From Prostheceraeus crozeri (taxonomy: Eukaryota; Platyhelminthes; Polycladida; Euryleptidae): DNA of 64,000 nt. The first letter of the stretch is position 1, and each line of letters starts with the position of its first letter. Made by a program: the position numbers and the translations under genes. The stretch covers positions 392,785-456,784 of the forward strand of contig CAJQUW010009227.1 in NCBI GenBank assembly GCA_907163375.1, written 5' to 3'. A model generated the notes under the pieces. It had not been told where the DNA came from. It saw nothing but the letters and a program-made list of their open reading frames with translations, and did no database searches. Below are positions 11,346 to 48,523 of this stretch, one piece after another.

Positions 11346-12419
11346 CATAAATTACCCTAGTAATTACTCACATACTAGCGTTCATGTTGAATCCTCGGAA
11401 ACCATTGGCTTTCATTGATGATGCTTATAAGTTCTCTTTTTCTGATTTGGGAGCACGATCAATGTTCAACTATTCTGAATCCACTGTTCAACATAATGAG
11501 GTTGTTAGTAATGGAAACTATTGCAAATTAATTATTCCTATTTAAAACGGCTTTTACTTCATTTTTTGAAGCTTCTGTCTAATTTCTATACATTTTCTCA
11601 AAATATTCAAATTCCGGCTTATTTCTTTCCTTAGAGTCAAATGGCCCTGTGTATTTGTTTAGAGGACTATGACTGGTATGATTACTTAATAATCTAGGAG
11701 GCCAAGCTGCGTGAATATCTTAGAATTGTCGGGAACAGTCATCCAAAATCTTGATATTCTCCTGCAATTCTAATTACTGAAAAGTATTGCAGTTAGCAGG
11801 ATGCGTTACATTATAGAAAAATGTGAACAAGAATGTGCGGCAATTCTATCACCTGGTTGACCAGTGCTGTGGTAATTTAAGAGATCGTTCGCTCAGCGTA
11901 TGAGAGACTTCGGACCAGACCTTGGTCGTATCAAGCCTAAGACTTAAAATAGGTAGGTGTACTCCACAGTTTTGCTATACATTCTGCACAAAAGAATGAG
12001 GATGGGATAAATAAAGTGTGGCGAATGTGCTTCCTAATATAACACCAATGATAACCAAGTAATCAATTTAACCAAGCATAAATAAGGCTAATGTAAACAT
12101 TATCATTTTATTTTACAATCAAATAGTTTATTAATTGGCCGAATTATCATAATGACAGAAAACAGAATATTTCTTCGACCAAGACAGCTATATTAAAAAC
12201 AATAAAGTTCTCCAACGTCCATGGTTCTGGTACACGGGAGGTGAATGCTGGAATTAGTTTAACAAGAGACAGATATTGCGCAAATGGATAACCTAAACAA
12301 GTAATACGAAAGTGTTTATTGAAAGTAAAATCTCAGCCAAGAACTCAGAGAGAGGAATAAAAAAAGCCTATCTAACCCTGTCCAATTAATCGGAAATTCA
12401 AGTCAGACAAATAAGGACT

Positions 12420-12764
12420 ATGGCAAGAAAATGCAAAATAAGCGATCATCTCAACATCAGCTTCAAATCACGCCATCCGGCAGCAAGTCCTCAAACTAGG
12501 AAGAATAGATTTTGTTTGAAGGAAGACTGTCTGTCTTGTTTAGCTGGTGATGGAGTGGATTGTGGCATTAGGGGATGTGTGCATCAAATTAATAGCAAAT
12601 TTCGTAGCTCCTTTTACATTGGCGAATCGAAACGGACAATGAGGACTAGGATACGAGAGCTCGTGAAGAATAATTCGTCATCAGTTTACCAACATGTTCG
12701 GGATAGACATTCTATTGATCCATCCTTGGGTTGCATCACTTGGACATTTTACATAGAAATCTAA
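12420..12764 (+). pseudogene. Penelope-like element, GIY-YIG endonuclease fragment
   Basis: The 114-residue reading frame has a cysteine cluster (CLKEDCLSCLAGDGVDC) followed by VHQINSKFRSSFYIGESKR and a downstream Arg/Glu-rich helix ending in VYQHVRDRH. This is the zinc-knuckle plus GIY-YIG nuclease pattern at the C-terminus of Penelope-like retroelements. The catalytic GIY-type strand is degenerate (VHQI) but YIGES and the Arg helix are visible. No reverse transcriptase is recognisable just upstream, so this is a 5'-truncated copy. Confidence 0.7.
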
Positions 12765-12977: not shown

Positions 12978-13053
12978 GTAAGTGGCTCGTAGCTCAGTTG
13001 GTAGAGAACAGGTCTAGTCAACCTTGGTCGTAGGTTCGAATCCTACCAGCAGC
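12978..13053 (+). repeat. tRNA-like sequence, degenerate
   Basis: The sequence has a good A box (TAGCTCAGTTGGTAGAG) and a perfect T arm with B box (GTAGG TTCGAAT CCTAC). The anticodon loop would read CTAGTCA (anticodon AGT, Thr). The acceptor strands do not pair and position 37 would be a C. It is probably a tRNA pseudogene or a SINE head, not a working tRNA. Confidence 0.55.
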
Positions 13054-14411
13054 ACATCTTTTGCATGGCAATTTGATCTATTGTTTATTTAATTTCACTC
13101 TGTTGTAAACACACTACTGACATTCCGTATAAGCTAGTGTGACAGCACTAATCAATAAATGCTGTTTTGAAAAATATTCGCGCATTAATCTTGGTGATGA
13201 ATGAGCAACAGAAGAGATTAATACTTCCCTTCGATGGAGAAAAGTCGAAGACTTGAGTAATTAAGTTGCCTTAAATGACTGACAACACGTGATTAACTTC
13301 TGCGTGGGACAAGCGCATATCACTGTCTATGACTGATTCAGCCTATCTGCCTCCAACTACATCCCACTATCGTTCACTCTCACTGAGTATAATTGGATTT
13401 TGCTTTCATTACTTTTCCAGACAGACACGCAGACAGAAATAATTCAATTCAATGGTCATATCAAATATCAACAATCCGATGCACAAACAAATATTTCCTT
13501 GACTACTTTGAAGGGAATGGTATGGCATGATGTCCTTCATTACGGCTGAAATTTCAAGTGACTTTCACACAATTCGCTTATCCATTTTCAATCGACTTAA
13601 TTAATGTTATAAAAGCGACTCTGTAAATGTAATCTGTAAATCAGATAAACGTAGGTGTGAAATCAGATAAACGTTTGATCAAAAATTGCAAGGACTGAAA
13701 GGTTAAAGCAATGATATGAAGATACGCCGCATCACGACTCTAGTAGCTTCTGGAAATTGAGGGAACAAGATTATTTTTTGCAGCAAAGCTCTTTGAATAT
13801 ATTATTCAGCATATTAAATATTTATATTATAATTTAATTACAATTTATTTAATTGTTATTCATATTTATTATATATTTATCTGCATATTTATTCAGTACA
13901 TTTACATAGCGATGTACCCAAGTGGCTCACAGCGCAGAGAAACAATGCTAACAAACAACCGAAAGTGAAAGTCACGTGAAAGCATTTGACAGAAGGAAAG
14001 TTTTTAATAGGCGTTTAACAGAATTTAGTGACTGAGCATCACAGATTGTCTGATTCAACAGACGGAAAATAACCAAAACATTCTAGACCAACGCCATACC
14101 AACTCATCCATTGATGTGCGATAGAATGACATAGGTCCTCAATTGAAGAATCCGCGATATCGAATCAGATGGCTTCATAACCCAAGGCAACATGGCATTA
14201 ACCGTCAAGACAAACCACAGAAGCAAGATATCAGTAATTCAAAGCCAGCATCATACTCTGAGGAAGACCATTCCACACCAGTGGAGCAACGTAGCTCAAT
14301 GACCACCAGATAATTTAATGCTAATTTTAGACACTTTTGAAATTGTTGAGTCACTTAATAAACGGAGAGAGCGAGAGGCAACATATAAACGACACATTAG
14401 ACAAATGCCTT

Positions 14412-14812: not shown

Positions 14813-14845
14813 GATTAGGAAGACCGCAGAGAAGCCAGAAGATAT

Positions 14846-15264
14846 AAGAAAATGTATATCAATGACATTTTCTTTATTATTGATGCCTCTTCTGACTTTC
14901 CTTCCGATAGATTATTAGAAATTGCAAATATTATCAACAGTCATATTCAATTTACTCTTGAAAAAACACAAAATGGCTCCATATCATTTCTAGACACCAC
15001 TGTAAGTTGTCTGAACGATCAGACTTTTTCTTTAAAACTTCACATCAAAAATATCCACTCTTTTCATATCATGCCGCGGAAAAGTCACGTGCCCCATAGC
15101 CAAAAAAACCTCAGTTATAAAAACGGAAAAATCAAGAGCTTTGAGATATTCGACATCAAATGAAGGCAAAATACTCTCGCTACAATTGACTGCTAATAGA
15201 TTCCTTGTGAAAGGGTATCCGAAAAGACTTGTTTATTCCATTTTATTTTCGCCTCCACAACGTA
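14846..15264 (+). pseudogene. Penelope-like element, reverse transcriptase 3' part
   Basis: The frame starts MYINDIFFIID, the YxDD catalytic motif region with the first Asp replaced by Asn. It continues IQFTLEKTQNGSISFLDTTV, typical of the Penelope-like reverse transcriptase palm/thumb. A frameshift near 15130 moves the reading to a second frame with TANRFLVKGYPKR, after which the DD41D transposon begins at 15305. The nuclease domain of the same kind of element resumes beyond the transposon at 17169. The copy is inactive. Confidence 0.72.
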
Positions 15265-15302: not shown

Positions 15303-17055
15303 TACAGGGTGACTCAAAAGTCTTAATCGGGTTTCAAGTCAAGATTTCTCAGTAAGTATTTGCACTACAACCTTAATTTTTCGTTTATACTGTAGAGGAA
15401 GAACCAGAATTTTAGTAACATATCGCAATTTGTGAAAAAAATCAAGTTAGAGTTCGAACTACTTGCTCATTCATTTTATGGAGGTCAACCAATTTATCAA
15501 ATGGTATGAAACATTGTCCGCTTACGATTTGTTTCTCATTGACTACAACCACATGCTAATACTTCATCATTAAATTTGATTGATCAAGTGACCTGCTAAG
15601 TGTGAACAAGACTTAATGCACATGCGTCCATTGAAATAATAGCGGAAAGTTAATACGAAGGCATAATGAAGAAGGACAACAAAGAAGAATGCTAAGCTAT
15701 CCATTTCCATTAATGTGTGATTGGTACTTATGATAATTATCGAACTTCTACATTAGCTCAATAGTTATGCATGACGTCAAAATGTCGTTGAATTGAAGCA
15801 TAGGCATAGATATCTGTGAAAAGACTGATTTCGGAAACCGTTTAGTACTTAATAGCTGCTGATATTCACTTTTCTATCATAGAAACCAGTGATGTTATCT
15901 GTGCAAGATCGGATCAACGTTGTGTTGCTTATGGCTAAGCATGAGTCCGTAACTACCGCCCGACGGGAGTGGCAAAGAAATTTCACATCAAAGCCACCTT
16001 CTGAAAGCACATTCCGACTTGTGTTTAAGAAATTTACTGAGACGGGTTCTGTCCAAGATGCTGAGCGAAGTGGTCGCCCATCCCTTGATGAGGATGATGT
16101 TTTACGTGTGAAAGAGGAGTTTGAGAACAATCCAAGATCGTCGGTGCGGGATGCAGCCAATCAGCTTGACATGCCACGCGAGACTGTTCGACGTACTCTG
16201 AAGCGAACAATTGGCATGAAATCATTTCACATTTCCCGTGTTCATGAACTGTTGCCACACGACTATGAACCAAGGCTTCAGTGAAGAAATTAGCCGGCTA
16301 TGTGATGATCCCAGCTTCATACACAAGCTATGTTTTTCTGACGAGGCCATCTTTCATCTGAATGGCAAAATTAACAGTCACAACTGTGTGATTTGGGACT
16401 ATGAGAATCCACATTTATGTGACGAGATTCCTCTAAAGTCGAAAGGCTTGGTGTTCTGGGCGGCCATGTTTTGCGACCGGATCATCGGACCTTACTTCTT
16501 TGAAACAACGGTGACGAAAGACTCCTATCTCGAGATGCTGAGGGATTATTTCATTCCTGAACTGAAGAGACTACGAAGATTTTCCACGACAGTCTTCCAA
16601 CAAGATGACGCTCCTCCTCATTGGGGTCTGAATGTGAGAGAATTTCTCAACATCCAATTCCCTAATCGATGGATTGGCAGGAACGGTCCCATCCACTGGC
16701 CAGCTAGGAGCCCAGATTTGACGCCTCTTGATTATTTTTTGTGGGGTCATATCAAGGAGATGGTGTACAAGAATAGGCCAACAGACAACGAAGAACTGCG
16801 AGTGAAGATTGCAGAAGCAGTCCAGTCCGTGACGAAAGTCACGATCAACAAGACTTTTGAAAACTTTCAAAAAAGAGTCATTCTTTGTAATGAAGTTAAC
16901 GGATCTCACTTCCAGCATATATTGTAAAAATGCAAGTCTCTTTGGAAATTCTGGTTCTTCCTCTGCAGTATAAACGAAAAATTGAGTTTGTAGTGCAAAT
17001 ACTTACAGAGAAATCTCAATTTGAAACCCGATTAAGACTTTTGAGTCACCCTGTA
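15303..17055 (+). mobile_element. DD41D mariner-group transposon (rosa/VISITOR-like), complete ends
   Basis: The element occupies 15305-17053 (1749 bp), flanked on both sides by the TA target dinucleotide. Its inverted terminal repeats are about 108 bp (15305-15412 and 16946-17053), beginning CAGGGTGACTCAAAAG, with only a few mismatches between arms. It carries one transposase gene with a single frameshift. It is inserted inside a Penelope-like element, so it is the younger insertion. Confidence 0.92.
15889..16927 (+). pseudogene. DD41D mariner-group transposase, one frameshift
   Basis: The first frame (15889-16284) holds the paired helix-turn-helix DNA-binding region, with a GRPS linker (ERSGRPSLDEDD) and a second helix set (DAANQLDMPRETVRRTLKR). 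The second frame (from 16238) holds the catalytic domain: CFSDEAIFHLNG (first Asp), FQQDDAPPHW (second Asp) and SPDLTPLDYFLWG (third Asp). Counting from the Asp before DAPPHW to the Asp of PLDYF leaves 41 residues between them, the spacing of the rosa/VISITOR group. The frame changes near 16270-16284 by a net +1 shift. Otherwise the gene is intact up to its stop at 16927, which suggests a fairly recent loss. Confidence 0.88.
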
Positions 17056-25759: not shown

Positions 25760-27607
25760 TAGGTTTTCCCGATCAAATATAACACCCTGTCAAACCAAAT
25801 GTAACACTAGACAATCACTTTGTAGCATGTCAGACCAAATGTAGATTCAATGCAGCGCATCGATTGCAAATCTAATTGTTGGTAGATCAAATATAATCTG
25901 TCAGATCAAGTGTTGAATTCTATTCATTCTCTATCGTTCTATTGTGCACCATAGGTAGAACAAATATCAAACTAGTCTCTTTATAAGTGGCAGATACAGA
26001 CCAAATATATGTTGTTATCATCGGATGCTATCAATGATGCGATATCAAAGAATTTCCGTCATTGACAAGCAGCGCTTGGTAGACGCTCATAGTCATGGCG
26101 AGGATTATGTTGCACTCGCCCGCCAACTTGGGATCAAGAGGTCCACAGCGAGCGTACGCCATCATTCGAAGAGCCAATGACAATTAAGGCATCGTCGCCT
26201 TTCCTCGAGGTGGAGCTCGTCCGCAACGGACTCGTGTGACGCCTGCTCTGAGGGAGGCCGCAGTAGCCATTGTGGAGCAACATCCAGACTTCACTCTGGA
26301 TCAGATAAACTCTGAATTACGCGTAGCTCTTCCGACACATGCACCGATCGGAAGATCAACGCTTTCGAACATGCTGTATGAGGAGCTAATCGTAATGAAG
26401 AAATTAAAGGATGCGCCTGGTCAACGAAATTCGGAGGTGGCAAAGCAAAGACGTAAAGAATTTGCAGAATGGATCATGCAGCTGATGAGCAAAGAGCTCA
26501 TCTTCATAGATGAAGCCGGCATCAATCTGTGGACGAGGAGAACCAGAGGACGCGCACGGGTAGGCGAGCGAGCTGTACGAGTAGTTGGTGGTACAAGAGG
26601 ACGGAATTTCACTATGACACTTGCTGTTAGTGCTACTAACGGTCTAATTCACCATGATCTGATCAGTGGAGGAATGAATGGCGAACGGTTCAAAGAATTT
26701 CAGCGAGAAGTGGTAGAGCATTTTCCCGACGATGGAGTGGAGAAAGTCCTTATTTTCGACAACGCGCCTGCTCATCGAAGTGCTGGTGATGTCAGTCTTC
26801 CGCAGACAGTCACACTCGAGTGGCTTCCACCGTACTCACCCATGTTGAATATTGTGGAGAACTGCTTCTCTCAGTGGAAGGCCTCCGTAAAGCGAGGTTT
26901 AGCGGAAGTAAGAGATCAGCTTCATGATCAAGCTCCTCAGGAGAGAGAAGCCACTTCATGTCAACTTGCGGAGCAGAGTGTGTCGGTCATCACCCCAGAG
27001 GAATGTGGCAGCTACTTTAGACATTTGCAGCGGTATTTGCCAGCGTGTTTATTAAAGCAGAACATTTTGATGTAAATTTGATTTGATAATTTATGCGCAT
27101 GGATTATCAAGTTGTTCTCACATTCAAATATTTTTCGGCTTCAGATATTGACCTAAGAAAAGTGGGGTACTCAAAAATTCCTGATCATTCATATATGTTA
27201 TCAATTCTTATTCTATTCTTAGGCATGAGTAAATTAATCGTTTTCACATCTTGTATGTTGCGGACATTCACCAGTATGACATTCAATTAATGGTTGATGT
27301 TCAAATGTGAAGTTAATTGCATTCTTCGTAGCATATCAATTCTATTGATATGTATGACACTATATGATTCTTTTATTATATTTGATCTGTCATTGTTAAA
27401 TTTGCTTTTGACTAATCATCATTATTACATTTGATAACAGCTTTATGCTACATTTGATTTGACAGGTTATATTTGATAACTGCCCTAATGTTACATTTGA
27501 TTTGACAGGTTATATTTGATAACTGCCCTAATATTGACGTGTTACATTTGCTTTTATCTATATTACATTTGGTCAAAACAAGTGTTATATTTGATCGGGA
27601 AAACCTA
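25760..27607 (+). mobile_element. DD32E Tc1/IS630-like transposon with subterminal repeat arrays
   Basis: Ends at 25762 and 27605 form perfect inverted repeats of about 24 bp, beginning GGTTTTCCCGATCAAATATA, flanked by TA. Between each end and the gene lie many spaced copies of an ATCAAATRTAA-type word. On the right, a 45-bp unit containing ACATTTGAT...TATATTTGATAACTGCCCTAAT is repeated in tandem (27440-27535). The transposase is interrupted. Element length is 1844 bp. Confidence 0.9.
26034..27075 (+). pseudogene. DD32E Tc1/IS630-like transposase, broken near its N-terminus
   Basis: A start at 26034 opens a helix-turn-helix frame (MMRYQRISVIDKQRLVDAHS). A 4-bp tandem duplication (AGCGAGCG, near 26150) shifts the frame, and an in-frame TAA follows near 26180. 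The remaining frame from 26236 runs 279 codons. It contains a second HTH (FTLDQINSELRV), the catalytic FIDEAGINLWTRR (Asp), FDNAPAHRSAG (Asp) and LPPYSPMLNIVEN (Glu), with 32 residues between the last two. All three catalytic residues remain. The C-terminus reaches a normal-looking stop. Confidence 0.87.
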
Positions 27608-29875: not shown

Positions 29876-30191
29876 TTGGCCTTCTAGGCTGCCAAGGAAA
29901 TTTCGTGCTTAATTAGTTCAAGTCTGAGGATATCTTTCTATTCTATGCCCAGGCAAACTGGCACTCTGCAATCTTTATGATTATCAGCCGTACTCCAAAG
30001 TCAGGATAAACGCAGAGCAGCCTGTTGTGCAGTCCTTCAACTTGTTTAGCAATTCTAGATATTTTAAGCTAGTTTGGGCCATTGAAAGCAGTGCTGACGA
30101 GCCCTTGTAGGGCGAAACGCAGCGTCTACAGCTGCCAAGGAATTTTCGTGTTTAAATTGCAAGTCTGAGGACATATTTCTATTATTGGCCT
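29876..30191 (+). mobile_element. Hammerhead-ribozyme retroposon (retrozyme-like) with 7-bp target duplication
   Basis: TTGGCCT at 29876-29882 and 30185-30191 flanks a 302-bp element. The element is one unit of about 242 bp (from about 29884) plus the first 58 bases or so of a second unit (from 30126). The two unit starts share GCTGCCAAGGAA, then TTTCGTG and CAAGTCTGAGGA. The unit junction is a complete hammerhead ribozyme, and the left end of the element aligns with its cleavage position. No open reading frame is present, so it must be mobilised in trans. Confidence 0.78.
30088..30135 (+). ncRNA. Type I hammerhead ribozyme
   Basis: The conserved core CTGACGAG (30094-30101) is followed by stem II (GCCC/GGGC closing a TTGTA loop, 30101-30113), then GAAA (30114-30117), stem III (ACG/CGT closing CAG), and the cleavage triplet GTC ending at 30126. 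Stem I forms between GCAGTG (30088-30093) and TAC...CTGC (30127-30135), with an internal loop as in natural type I ribozymes. All catalytic-core positions are intact, and predicted cleavage is after C30126. Found by motif reading only; no folding program was run. Confidence 0.87.
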
Positions 30192-40531: not shown

Positions 40532-40660
40532 TATACAAAATATTGCCACTGCATTTTGCAGGAATTAAGAGCGAGATTTTTACTTGTTACAGAATCTCGA
40601 AACGTTGAGTAAAAATCTCGCTCTTAATTCCTGCGAAGCCAGTGTCAATATTTTACATAA
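40532..40660. repeat. Long hairpin (foldback) element
   Basis: Perfect 26-base arms at 40558-40583 and 40609-40634 (left arm starting GCAGGAATTAAGAGCGAGAT) surround a 25-base loop. Outer arms (AAAATATTGCCACTGC against its near-complement) extend the pairing to about 50 bp per side. It is likely a foldback or MITE-type element. The perfect inner arms suggest a young or maintained structure. Confidence 0.8.
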
Positions 40661-46303: not shown

Positions 46304-48523
46304 TACCGTATTTCTTCGAATAAACGCCGCCCTCGAATAGACGCCGCCCTCGAATAAACGCCGCAGCAAAATCAGGGTTGTTTCGAATAAACGCCGCCCT
46401 CGAATAGACGCCGCACCTAATTTATGCTTTTGTCTTTTACTTGAAGCCTCATCATCGTACTCAATGCTAGACACGCGTAAGTATAAATTTAGGGTCTATC
46501 GTTCTGCAAGAACATTGAGGTCTAGATTAACCCAGCTTGTACGGTTTTTTTCAATATTCACATTATTAACAAAAATTTCCTTTGTTCATAACAAACTTCA
46601 ATTACACCTTGAATTACTTATGTGTCTTAAAAAAACGAAAGTTATTTATGAAAGCCAATGTCGATGGACGAATCGGATTCACTAGAGTAGCCAGATTCAC
46701 GTGATGAATCGTCGTCGCTGATAAATTGACAAGTCAAATCCAAGTCCACATCGTTGGCATCCAAATTCTGGATATATTCGCGGGATGCCTCCGCAACACC
46801 TCCTGACTTCGTACAGTGAATTACGTCCGGGTCATTGCTCGTTATGCCACAAGCATGAAGGACGTCGTAATTACATCCAGTGGAATCTGGGCCCATGCCT
46901 CCTTGATCATTCAACCATCTTAATGCGACTCGGGGCCCGTGGGTTTCCGGCGGCTGTGACGTCTGAACCACGTGTTGGGTCCGCCAACCAAGCTTCATAC
47001 AATTCGGTGTATAAGGCCTTGAATGGTTTATTCCAGCTGACATGGGCAGGTTGAACAAGCATCGTACAACCTCCTGGGATGACGCAGTTCACAGTGTTCG
47101 TTGTCTTCAGCGTTTTCTTGATTTCATTAGTCAAGTGTCCTCGGAAGGAATCCCACACCAGCATCCTTCGGGAGAAAGCGAACGTCCCCCAACACTTTCT
47201 GATCCACTCTATTGTCGATTCCGAATCCATCCAACCATTTTCGCTCATTGATACAAAACGCCACTGACGTGTTTCAGCTCCTGGGGAAGTCGCTTTCCTG
47301 AAAATTGAATGGGAAAGGGAGATACAAACTTGATTTAAATTTATAGTTGGTCTTAGTGGCCTTACCTTTAAATAGTACCATCGGTGGTAATTTTCTTCCG
47401 TCTGCCATTGCAGCCAAAACACACCGTTACTCGGGTCTTCTCATTGACTGTTGTTAACACGGGCACTGTTTTGACGCCTTTGGAATCAACAGTACGATTG
47501 CCTGTCATGTCAGCCCAAACTGCTGTTTCATCCATATTTCCGATGTTAGAAAGCTCGAAATTGTATCTCGTTCGCATTTTCAAACAAAATTCAACGAAGC
47601 TAGAAACTTTGGTACACAGTTCTTTAGGAAGCCTTTGTCCTGAAGTAGTTTTGGACGCGCACGGTATAATCATTTCGTTTGAGAAACTTGTCTACCCATC
47701 CTCTCGAGGCCTTGAATTCAGGATTGTTAGCCAACTCTGACGCCTTTCTAGCAATTTTCTTTCGGGTCACACGATGATAACTTTCTCGTTCGGTAATAAT
47801 CCAAGTAGACAGCAGTTGTTCAATTTCTGGTAGGAGCGGTTTCCTGCCACCAACAGGTATTCGCCGGCGATTAGAACTTGTCGTTTCAGAAATCTCATCA
47901 AATTTTACGTTTTGTGTCTTCCATTCTCTTAAACGCCGTTCATCACACGGAACTCCCGAGCTGCAGGCCGCGTACCAATTTGCAGACTTCTTTCAATCGC
48001 TTTTTTCTTGAAAGCAATCGAATATGACCTTTTGGCATGACTAAGATGATATGATAAGAGACGAGAAGAAGATCTCACGTAGAACGTAATACTAACTTTT
48101 TCTCTAAATCACCTGTGTGTACTATCCTGAAACGCAGTTAGCTAGAAATTTAACCAATCAGAACTTTGTGCTATGTCATCCTACGCAGTTAGATGGTTCG
48201 CGTAGGTTACCGTGCGACCTGAGATCCATTTCTATGAATCCAGGCACACGGATAATATATTATCAGAATTCTACGCGCAATAAATTTTCGTGCATATTTA
48301 GACAATTTTGTGCTTTCGAAGACGACGCACATCTTCCTGGATTATGTATCATTGCATAATCACAATATACTCCGGTTATTAAATGTTCTTAAATATAAAA
48401 AAATAAAAAGGTTTGGTAGATTTTTAGCATGTTTCGAATAGACGCCGCCCTCGAATAAACGCCGCAGCAAAATCAGGGTTGTTTCGAATAAACGCCGCGG
48501 CGTTTATTCGAAGAAATACGGTA
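46304..48523 (-). mobile_element. Pogo-like transposon with direct and inverted terminal repeat arrays
   Basis: Ends at 46306 and 48521 form 24-bp inverted repeats, starting CCGTATTTCTTCGAATAAAC, flanked by TA. The left end carries five tandem or spaced copies of CGAATARACGCCGC (46318-46415). The right end carries three copies in the same direction (48434-48498) before the inverted end, producing a perfect 26-bp palindrome at 48485-48510 (half site CGAATAAACGCCG). The transposase is on the minus strand and broken. Confidence 0.9.
46642..48060 (-). pseudogene. Pogo-like transposase, several frameshifts, catalytic change
   Basis: Read from high to low coordinates, it opens with a pipsqueak/CENP-B type HTH (SYSIAFKKKAIERSLQIG), then the CENP-B HTH (ASELANNPEFKASRGWVDKF). 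The DDE_1 catalytic region follows: SNIGNMDETAVWADM (first Asp), LVWDSFRGHLT (second Asp) and VQPAHVSWNKPFKALY, where the usual third Asp of QP-x-D-V is His. At least three frame changes occur (near 48.0, 47.4 and 47.05 kb). The C-terminus is Ser/Asp-rich. The element cannot now make an active enzyme. Confidence 0.85.

Follow-up and report, generated by a model that had tools for sequence, protein, structure and literature searches.

A 64,000-nucleotide stretch of the genome of the polyclad flatworm Prostheceraeus crozeri (contig CAJQUW010009227.1, positions 392,785 to 456,784 of the forward strand; hereafter "the window") holds a short insert with a hammerhead ribozyme, and the observation of this ribozyme-bearing insert is real. 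The insert belongs to a non-coding, non-autonomous retrozyme, a new family that fits the known metazoan retrozymes. Since it is non-coding, and thus without reverse transcriptase and GIY-YIG endonuclease, it is not itself an autonomous Penelope-like element (PLE). Border counts over its genomic copies establish fixed 3' ends, head-to-head pairs of arms, unequal starts within a pair, target duplications and a like architecture in PLE-like elements of the same genome. Judged by these borders, the retrozyme is very probably integrated by PLE-type target-primed reverse transcription in which each DNA strand has a single start and the template is RNA intact at the hammerhead, either a multimer or a circle.

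The insert occupies positions 29883-30184 of the window (302 bp, + strand) and is bounded by two copies of a 7-bp target duplication, TTGGCCT, at 29876-29882 and 30185-30191. Direct repeats at a spacing of 241-243 bp delimit one complete unit of 242 bp, running from cleavage site to cleavage site (29885-30126), followed by 58 bases of the next unit (30127-30184). Mapped against the unit, the insertion is a single arm of 1.25 units. A type I hammerhead lies at the unit junction (30088-30132), with an exact 33-nt core at 30094-30126 and a predicted cut after C30126, and the left end of the insert (TC|TA) is 2 bases past the predicted cleavage point. The right end corresponds to the shorter of two classes of reverse-transcription start, for which the family median is 60 nt past the cleavage site. 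The sequence that separates the two starts (unit positions of about +59 to +98) is the likely counterpart of the PLE "tail", and an internal copy of it would be situated at approximately 29943-29983 (+). No long open frame crosses the insert or the family consensus unit (247 bp, 48% GC), for which the longest frame over a tandem trimer is 90 amino acids. A previous sequence-only reading of this DNA had described a 302-bp element with these repeats and flanks, without coding capacity and with a hammerhead core where two units meet, all of which was borne out; RNA-mediated insertion with target duplication, which it also suggested, is supported.

Two 3' starts and head-to-head arms

The host assembly (2.05 Gb, 14165 contigs) contains at least 58 matches to the element, with 40 of 5739 candidates scored, and 87 copies of the exact 33-nt core, the reversed control giving none. 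Two exact cores spaced one unit apart occur at 7 places (reversed control 0). Tandem extent reaches 2.56 units in locus L003, and most retrieved copies measure 1-1.5 units or are shorter. The genome search supports a dispersed family that includes copies longer than one unit. For border mapping, 100 loci were aligned with the periodic unit and positions were numbered from the predicted cut (u1). Loci L001-L030 were picked by similarity to the window copy, and L031-L100 by the exact core in contig-number order; the 87 core sites comprise 30 and 40 that were retrieved, the window copy, 2 within L006 and L015, and 14 that were left out. Removal of 6 same-place repeats and 6 copies sharing flanks leaves 88 independent insertions. 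Because loci were picked by similarity or by the core, every one of them contains an arm or more matching the hammerhead region, and second arms are the unselected ones.

The 3' ends fall into two classes. Among 139 ends, 67 lie at u50-76 (short class, median u60) and 56 at u87-106 (long class, median u98), with 16 found elsewhere; two internal 3' starts 30-40 nt apart are a feature of PLE-type integration. Another such feature, head-to-head inverted copies with the tail on one arm, is equally present. The 88 insertions consist of 49 head-to-head (-+) pairs, 35 single arms and 4 other arrangements, and no tail-to-tail (+-) pair occurs among them. Within the 37 classified pairs, one arm is short and the other long in 34 (18 and 16 by side), while 2 are short/short and 1 is long/long (Fisher p 1.9e-7). 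The long arm extends beyond the short start in 33 of the 34 short/long pairs, and short-class arms are not clearly longer than long-class arms (Wilcoxon p 0.09). Target duplications of at least 7 bp, reaching up to 17 bp, are seen around 21 of the 49 pairs, against 4.9% in a displaced control, and around 12 of the 39 other insertions, against 1.0%; no target-site motif was found beyond AT richness. The right border, absent from the sequence-only reading, is the informative one.

Borders of Penelope-like elements and known systems

In the same genome, the Pfam GIY-YIG model exceeds its cut-off at no fewer than 150 places, some of them in frames of 720-741 amino acids and some in tandem. The window itself contains a GIY-YIG-like piece at 12390-12764 (+), a putative decayed endonuclease fragment of a PLE that lies outside the insertion, 20 kb away, and represents the candidate helper class; its Pfam match is below cut-off (E 0.05, 14.3 bits), and at least 151 genome matches to it exist. 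A frame at 14819-15163 (+), presumably a piece of a PLE reverse transcriptase to judge by its motif, has at least 150 genome matches, and nine head-to-head neighbours are seen among those listed.

Two PLE-like families, A and B, have a conserved GCC..GGCGAAACGTY in their 3' flanks (read by eye). The 18 distinct ends of family A stop at about +60 or +96 after GAAACGTY; a script scored 6 as short and 12 as long, although two of the latter (L129 and L130), scored through gapped alignments, are short by eye. In family B, the 17 ends stop at about +60 or +89 (5 short, 8 long and 4 neither, by script). Among the matches listed for two PLE queries, opposite neighbours within 6 kb comprise 19 -+ and 0 +- pairs, overlapping pieces of one protein match having been dropped by eye beforehand, and the GIY-YIG matches listed supply 4 further -+ and 0 +- pairs (by eye). 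Outer flanks share 9-12 bp in 8 of 9 PLE head-to-head pairs, with shuffled maxima of 8-11; C12907 was excluded, its arms being identical far past the coding end. Placing the ends by the shared duplication gives 7 short/long pairs and no equal one. Two stay unassigned: C2136, which has no duplication and whose short arm ends 7 nt early, and C9315, in which one arm ends at +30. The sequence-only reading had named a Penelope-type partner, a suggestion that is supported by the resemblance of the retrozyme borders to those of PLE-like elements in the same genome.

Some observations concern the PLE-like flanks themselves. Rfam reported no hammerhead in L104-L108 or L109-L120. Flanks of several families (L104, L106, L108, L110, L112 and relatives) keep the hammerhead-like GCC..GGCGAAACGTY, with the CUGANGA part degenerate. 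A 17-bp duplication surrounds the C4015 copy (by eye). Searches of PDB and NCBIfam with PLE pieces returned nothing useful.

The protein of PAc, a PLE of Anolis, is described as starting reverse transcription internally at two adjacent sites, with both target strands cut and extended, and the PLE tail as the 30-40 bp stretch between the two starts (PMC11167929). Counted along the PAc frame of that study, the position of the hammerhead cut is 26 nt and that of the main start 111-118 nt; by subtraction, they are 85-92 nt apart, near the +98 site of the retrozyme. In the rotifer Adineta, Penelope is reported to form head-to-head inverted pseudo-long terminal repeats (pLTRs), optionally with the tail on one of them, and these pLTRs to be enough to move another gene in trans (PMC3846280). 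The retrozyme resembles both, as far as these accounts describe them, in two internal 3' starts 29-38 nt apart, head-to-head inverted copies, a tail on one arm and variable target duplications. Unlike PLEs, it is without a protein-coding part, its unit is only 247 bp, and it has no sequence in common with the sampled PLE families (A, B and D).

Metazoan retrozymes without long terminal repeats (LTRs) are described as non-coding repeats of 150-450 bp with type I hammerheads, for which RNA circles have been shown (Cervera and de la Pena 2020, PMC7229834). The present family shares with them the type I hammerhead, a short non-coding unit, tandem copies, GC content below 50%, target duplications above 4 bp and dispersal alongside PLEs, and small RNA circles are predicted for it. 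That work proposes a PLE helper chiefly because the two kinds of element occur together and both have hammerheads and tandem copies. In a later review, the repeats are described as bearing no motif that reveals the helper (PMC7761336), and reviews name PLEs or long interspersed nuclear elements (LINEs) as candidate movers (PMC7761336, PMC11722881). The present family differs from these earlier cases in that the insertion borders themselves bear PLE marks. Plant LTR retrozymes are likewise non-coding, hammerhead-bearing and parasitic on another element, but possess LTRs, type III hammerheads and circles of 600-800 nt (as stated in PMC7229834), none of which is found here. The enzyme that moves animal retrozymes has been an open question, which border counts over many copies can address from any assembly; here they point to PLEs. 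Among the results listed in full-text searches of open-licence papers, no publication maps retrozyme borders in this manner.

Alternative origins of the borders and a proposed mechanism

The sequence-only reading held that the template RNA had been cut at one hammerhead and not at the next, so that the left border would equal the cleavage site. The window copy agrees with this to within its 2 bases, and among 49 unselected second arms the 5' ends lie within 10 nt of the cleavage site in 7 (4.17 expected), a slight excess that is not counted as evidence, and within 2 nt in 2 (0.99 expected). Over the 88 insertions, however, only 3 of 143 5' ends fall within 2 nt (2.89 expected) and 7 within 5 nt (6.37 expected). 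Mapping the left borders of other copies, the refuting test that the sequence-only reading had itself named, shows them scattered over the unit, and a left border at the cleavage site is refuted as a general rule. Moreover, 21 of 40 unselected second arms with a classified start read through the site, the other 19 ending before it, and 13 of 152 arms (counted before removal of shared-flank copies) cross two sites. The idea of a template cut at a single hammerhead is accordingly very improbable, and coincidence is the best reading of why the window copy begins at the cut. In the 21 arms that cross the cleavage site the template RNA was intact at that point; it was therefore often uncut at the hammerhead beside the start, being either a multimer or a circle closed after cutting, and the data fit both alike.

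LINE insertions can likewise show 5' inversions and target duplications that vary in length, which recalls the inversions found here within a single target duplication and would allow a LINE to be the mover, with inverted arms formed by ordinary twin priming. The inverted arm that twin priming of a LINE produces begins at an upstream internal point, whereas both retrozyme arms begin at fixed 3' sites, the inverted arms using the same two starts as the forward arms, one each. No opposite pair within 6 kb was seen by eye among the 150 RVT_1 matches listed, and a LINE mover is judged highly unlikely. Head-to-head pairs might also represent complementary DNA (cDNA) that snapped back and primed itself, instead of priming on two strands, as was proposed for rotifer Penelope elements with junction palindromes (PMC3846280). 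Inner arm ends vary freely: only 2 of 52 pairs have them 5 nt apart or less, where 2.3 are expected. This result argues against snapped-back cDNA, and self-priming offers no reason for the split of +60 and +98 between arms in 34 of 37 pairs. The retrozyme counts favour two independent starts, leaving self-priming with a very low probability. A further alternative takes the family not as a separate retrozyme but as a reduced PLE, namely a pLTR relic that has kept the hammerhead and the start sites. The spacing from hammerhead core to 3' end equals that of families A and B, and a review raises the possibility of reduction from PLEs (PMC11722881). Similarity to families A, B and D, the PLE families compared, is nevertheless at chance level, and such an origin is possible, if rather unlikely.

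Several points weigh against integration by a PLE-type protein with one start per strand. The authors of the Adineta study favour self-priming for inverted pLTRs (PMC3846280), and the PAc protein in vitro is reported to show no strand-dependent choice of start site and to remain active with a mutated hammerhead (PMC11167929). When the retrozyme stretch from 60 to 98 nt was compared with PLE families A, B and D, 709, 608 and 576 of 1000 shuffles were as good, while A-B and A-D are clearly related by the same comparison (0 of 1000 shuffles). A likeness of the start region to the tails of these families, first suspected by eye, was rejected as not above shuffles; since the region is no nearer to A, B or D than shuffles are, no helper family is identified. 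The PLE label of families A and B depends on a weak GIY-YIG match, and the reverse transcriptase-like frame of the window has no match in Pfam. Many shuffled sequences (18 of 200 and 69 of 200) match the stability of the hairpins at the start sites, and neither these hairpins nor the hammerhead stretch stand out from shuffles (z -1.44, -0.31 and -0.51). Additionally, 12 of the 49 retrozyme pairs are unclassified, and the windows of the 3'-end classes were set after viewing the histogram. By script only, the PLE pairs comprise 5 short/long, 1 long/long (C2834) and 3 unclassified (C2136, C1957 and C9315); C2834, affected by a gapped alignment, and C1957 become short/long through the shared duplication.

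In the mechanism proposed for PLE-type integration, units of about 247 bp are predicted to be transcribed as multimers, and are probably cut and circularised. Insertion would be performed by the protein of a PLE, the endonuclease of which would nick both target strands at an offset of a few to 17 bases. Both freed 3' ends would then prime reverse transcription internally on the retrozyme RNA, approximately 60 and 98 nt past the cleavage site, with the usual rule that each DNA strand takes one start site and the other strand takes the other. The cDNAs would extend 5'-ward, often beyond the hammerhead, and stop at scattered points. They would be joined head to head, the target duplication arising from gap filling, and a single copy like that of the window would correspond to one retained cDNA. 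Three parts of this scheme go beyond what was counted and are inferred: which protein acts, that the pairs result from priming on both strands, and which form of RNA was copied.

It may be suggested, tentatively and with somewhat less than even confidence, that one start per strand is general to PLEs and to retrozymes mobilised by them. A protein dimer might act on one RNA structure that begins with the hammerhead, its two active sites starting about 30-40 nt apart on the two strands. If so, the PLE tail would be a mark of the strand copied. The fold of the hammerhead would be a measuring landmark for the reverse transcriptase besides being a cutter. The retrozyme would then hijack the PLE protein through shape and spacing, with no need for shared sequence. 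Independently of this suggestion, the border counts offer an interpretation of the tail, which has long been called optional: the strands of one insertion usually take different starts.

The hammerhead and other features of the window

The window has a single instance of the hammerhead core pattern CTGANGA...CGAAACGC...CGTC, and none of 100 dinucleotide shuffles contains it. Rfam Hammerhead_1 matches the ribozyme region with 24.0 bits (E 0.0025 when 701 bases are searched, E 0.23 over the whole window), and a scan of the window at the 34-bit cut-off reported no hammerhead; the Rfam check proposed in the sequence-only reading yielded the right type, with the window copy below cut-off. The low score is explained by decay of stem I in this copy (GCAGUG/UACAGC), the stem being perfect in the family consensus, with 6 of 6 pairs (GCCGUA/UACGGC; 29 copies, read by eye). 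Among 20 further copies scanned, one passes the cut-off (L003, 34.2 bits), and RF00163 is above cut-off at 7 places in the host genome compared with 0 of 14 control genomes. Self-cleavage of the element transcript is predicted.

A longer dispersed repeat, 97% alike over 1.3 kb, encloses a head-to-head retrozyme copy at L101 and L102 (C6453 and C2063). The hammerhead of this copy scores 47 bits, and the same score occurs at five genome places. The five matches were considered as a separate family and rejected, the two retrieved being retrozyme copies in one longer repeat.

Other features of the window include a tRNA-like sequence at 12985-13054 (+; RF00005, 35.7 bits), directly past the GIY-YIG piece, which is either a tRNA gene or a tRNA-derived short interspersed nuclear element. 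Pieces of DNA transposases are found at 15883-16924 (+; mariner-like), 26188-27072 (+; DDE_3/Tc1-like) and 46907-47992 (-; Tc5/DDE_1). A tandem repeat at 46316-46414 has a 17-bp period and 5.9 copies, and is GC-rich relative to the window. A hairpin at 40556-40636 (+) shows weak matches to mir-553 (41.6 bits, cut-off 82), mir-423 and mir-1322, and is perhaps a small inverted-repeat transposon.
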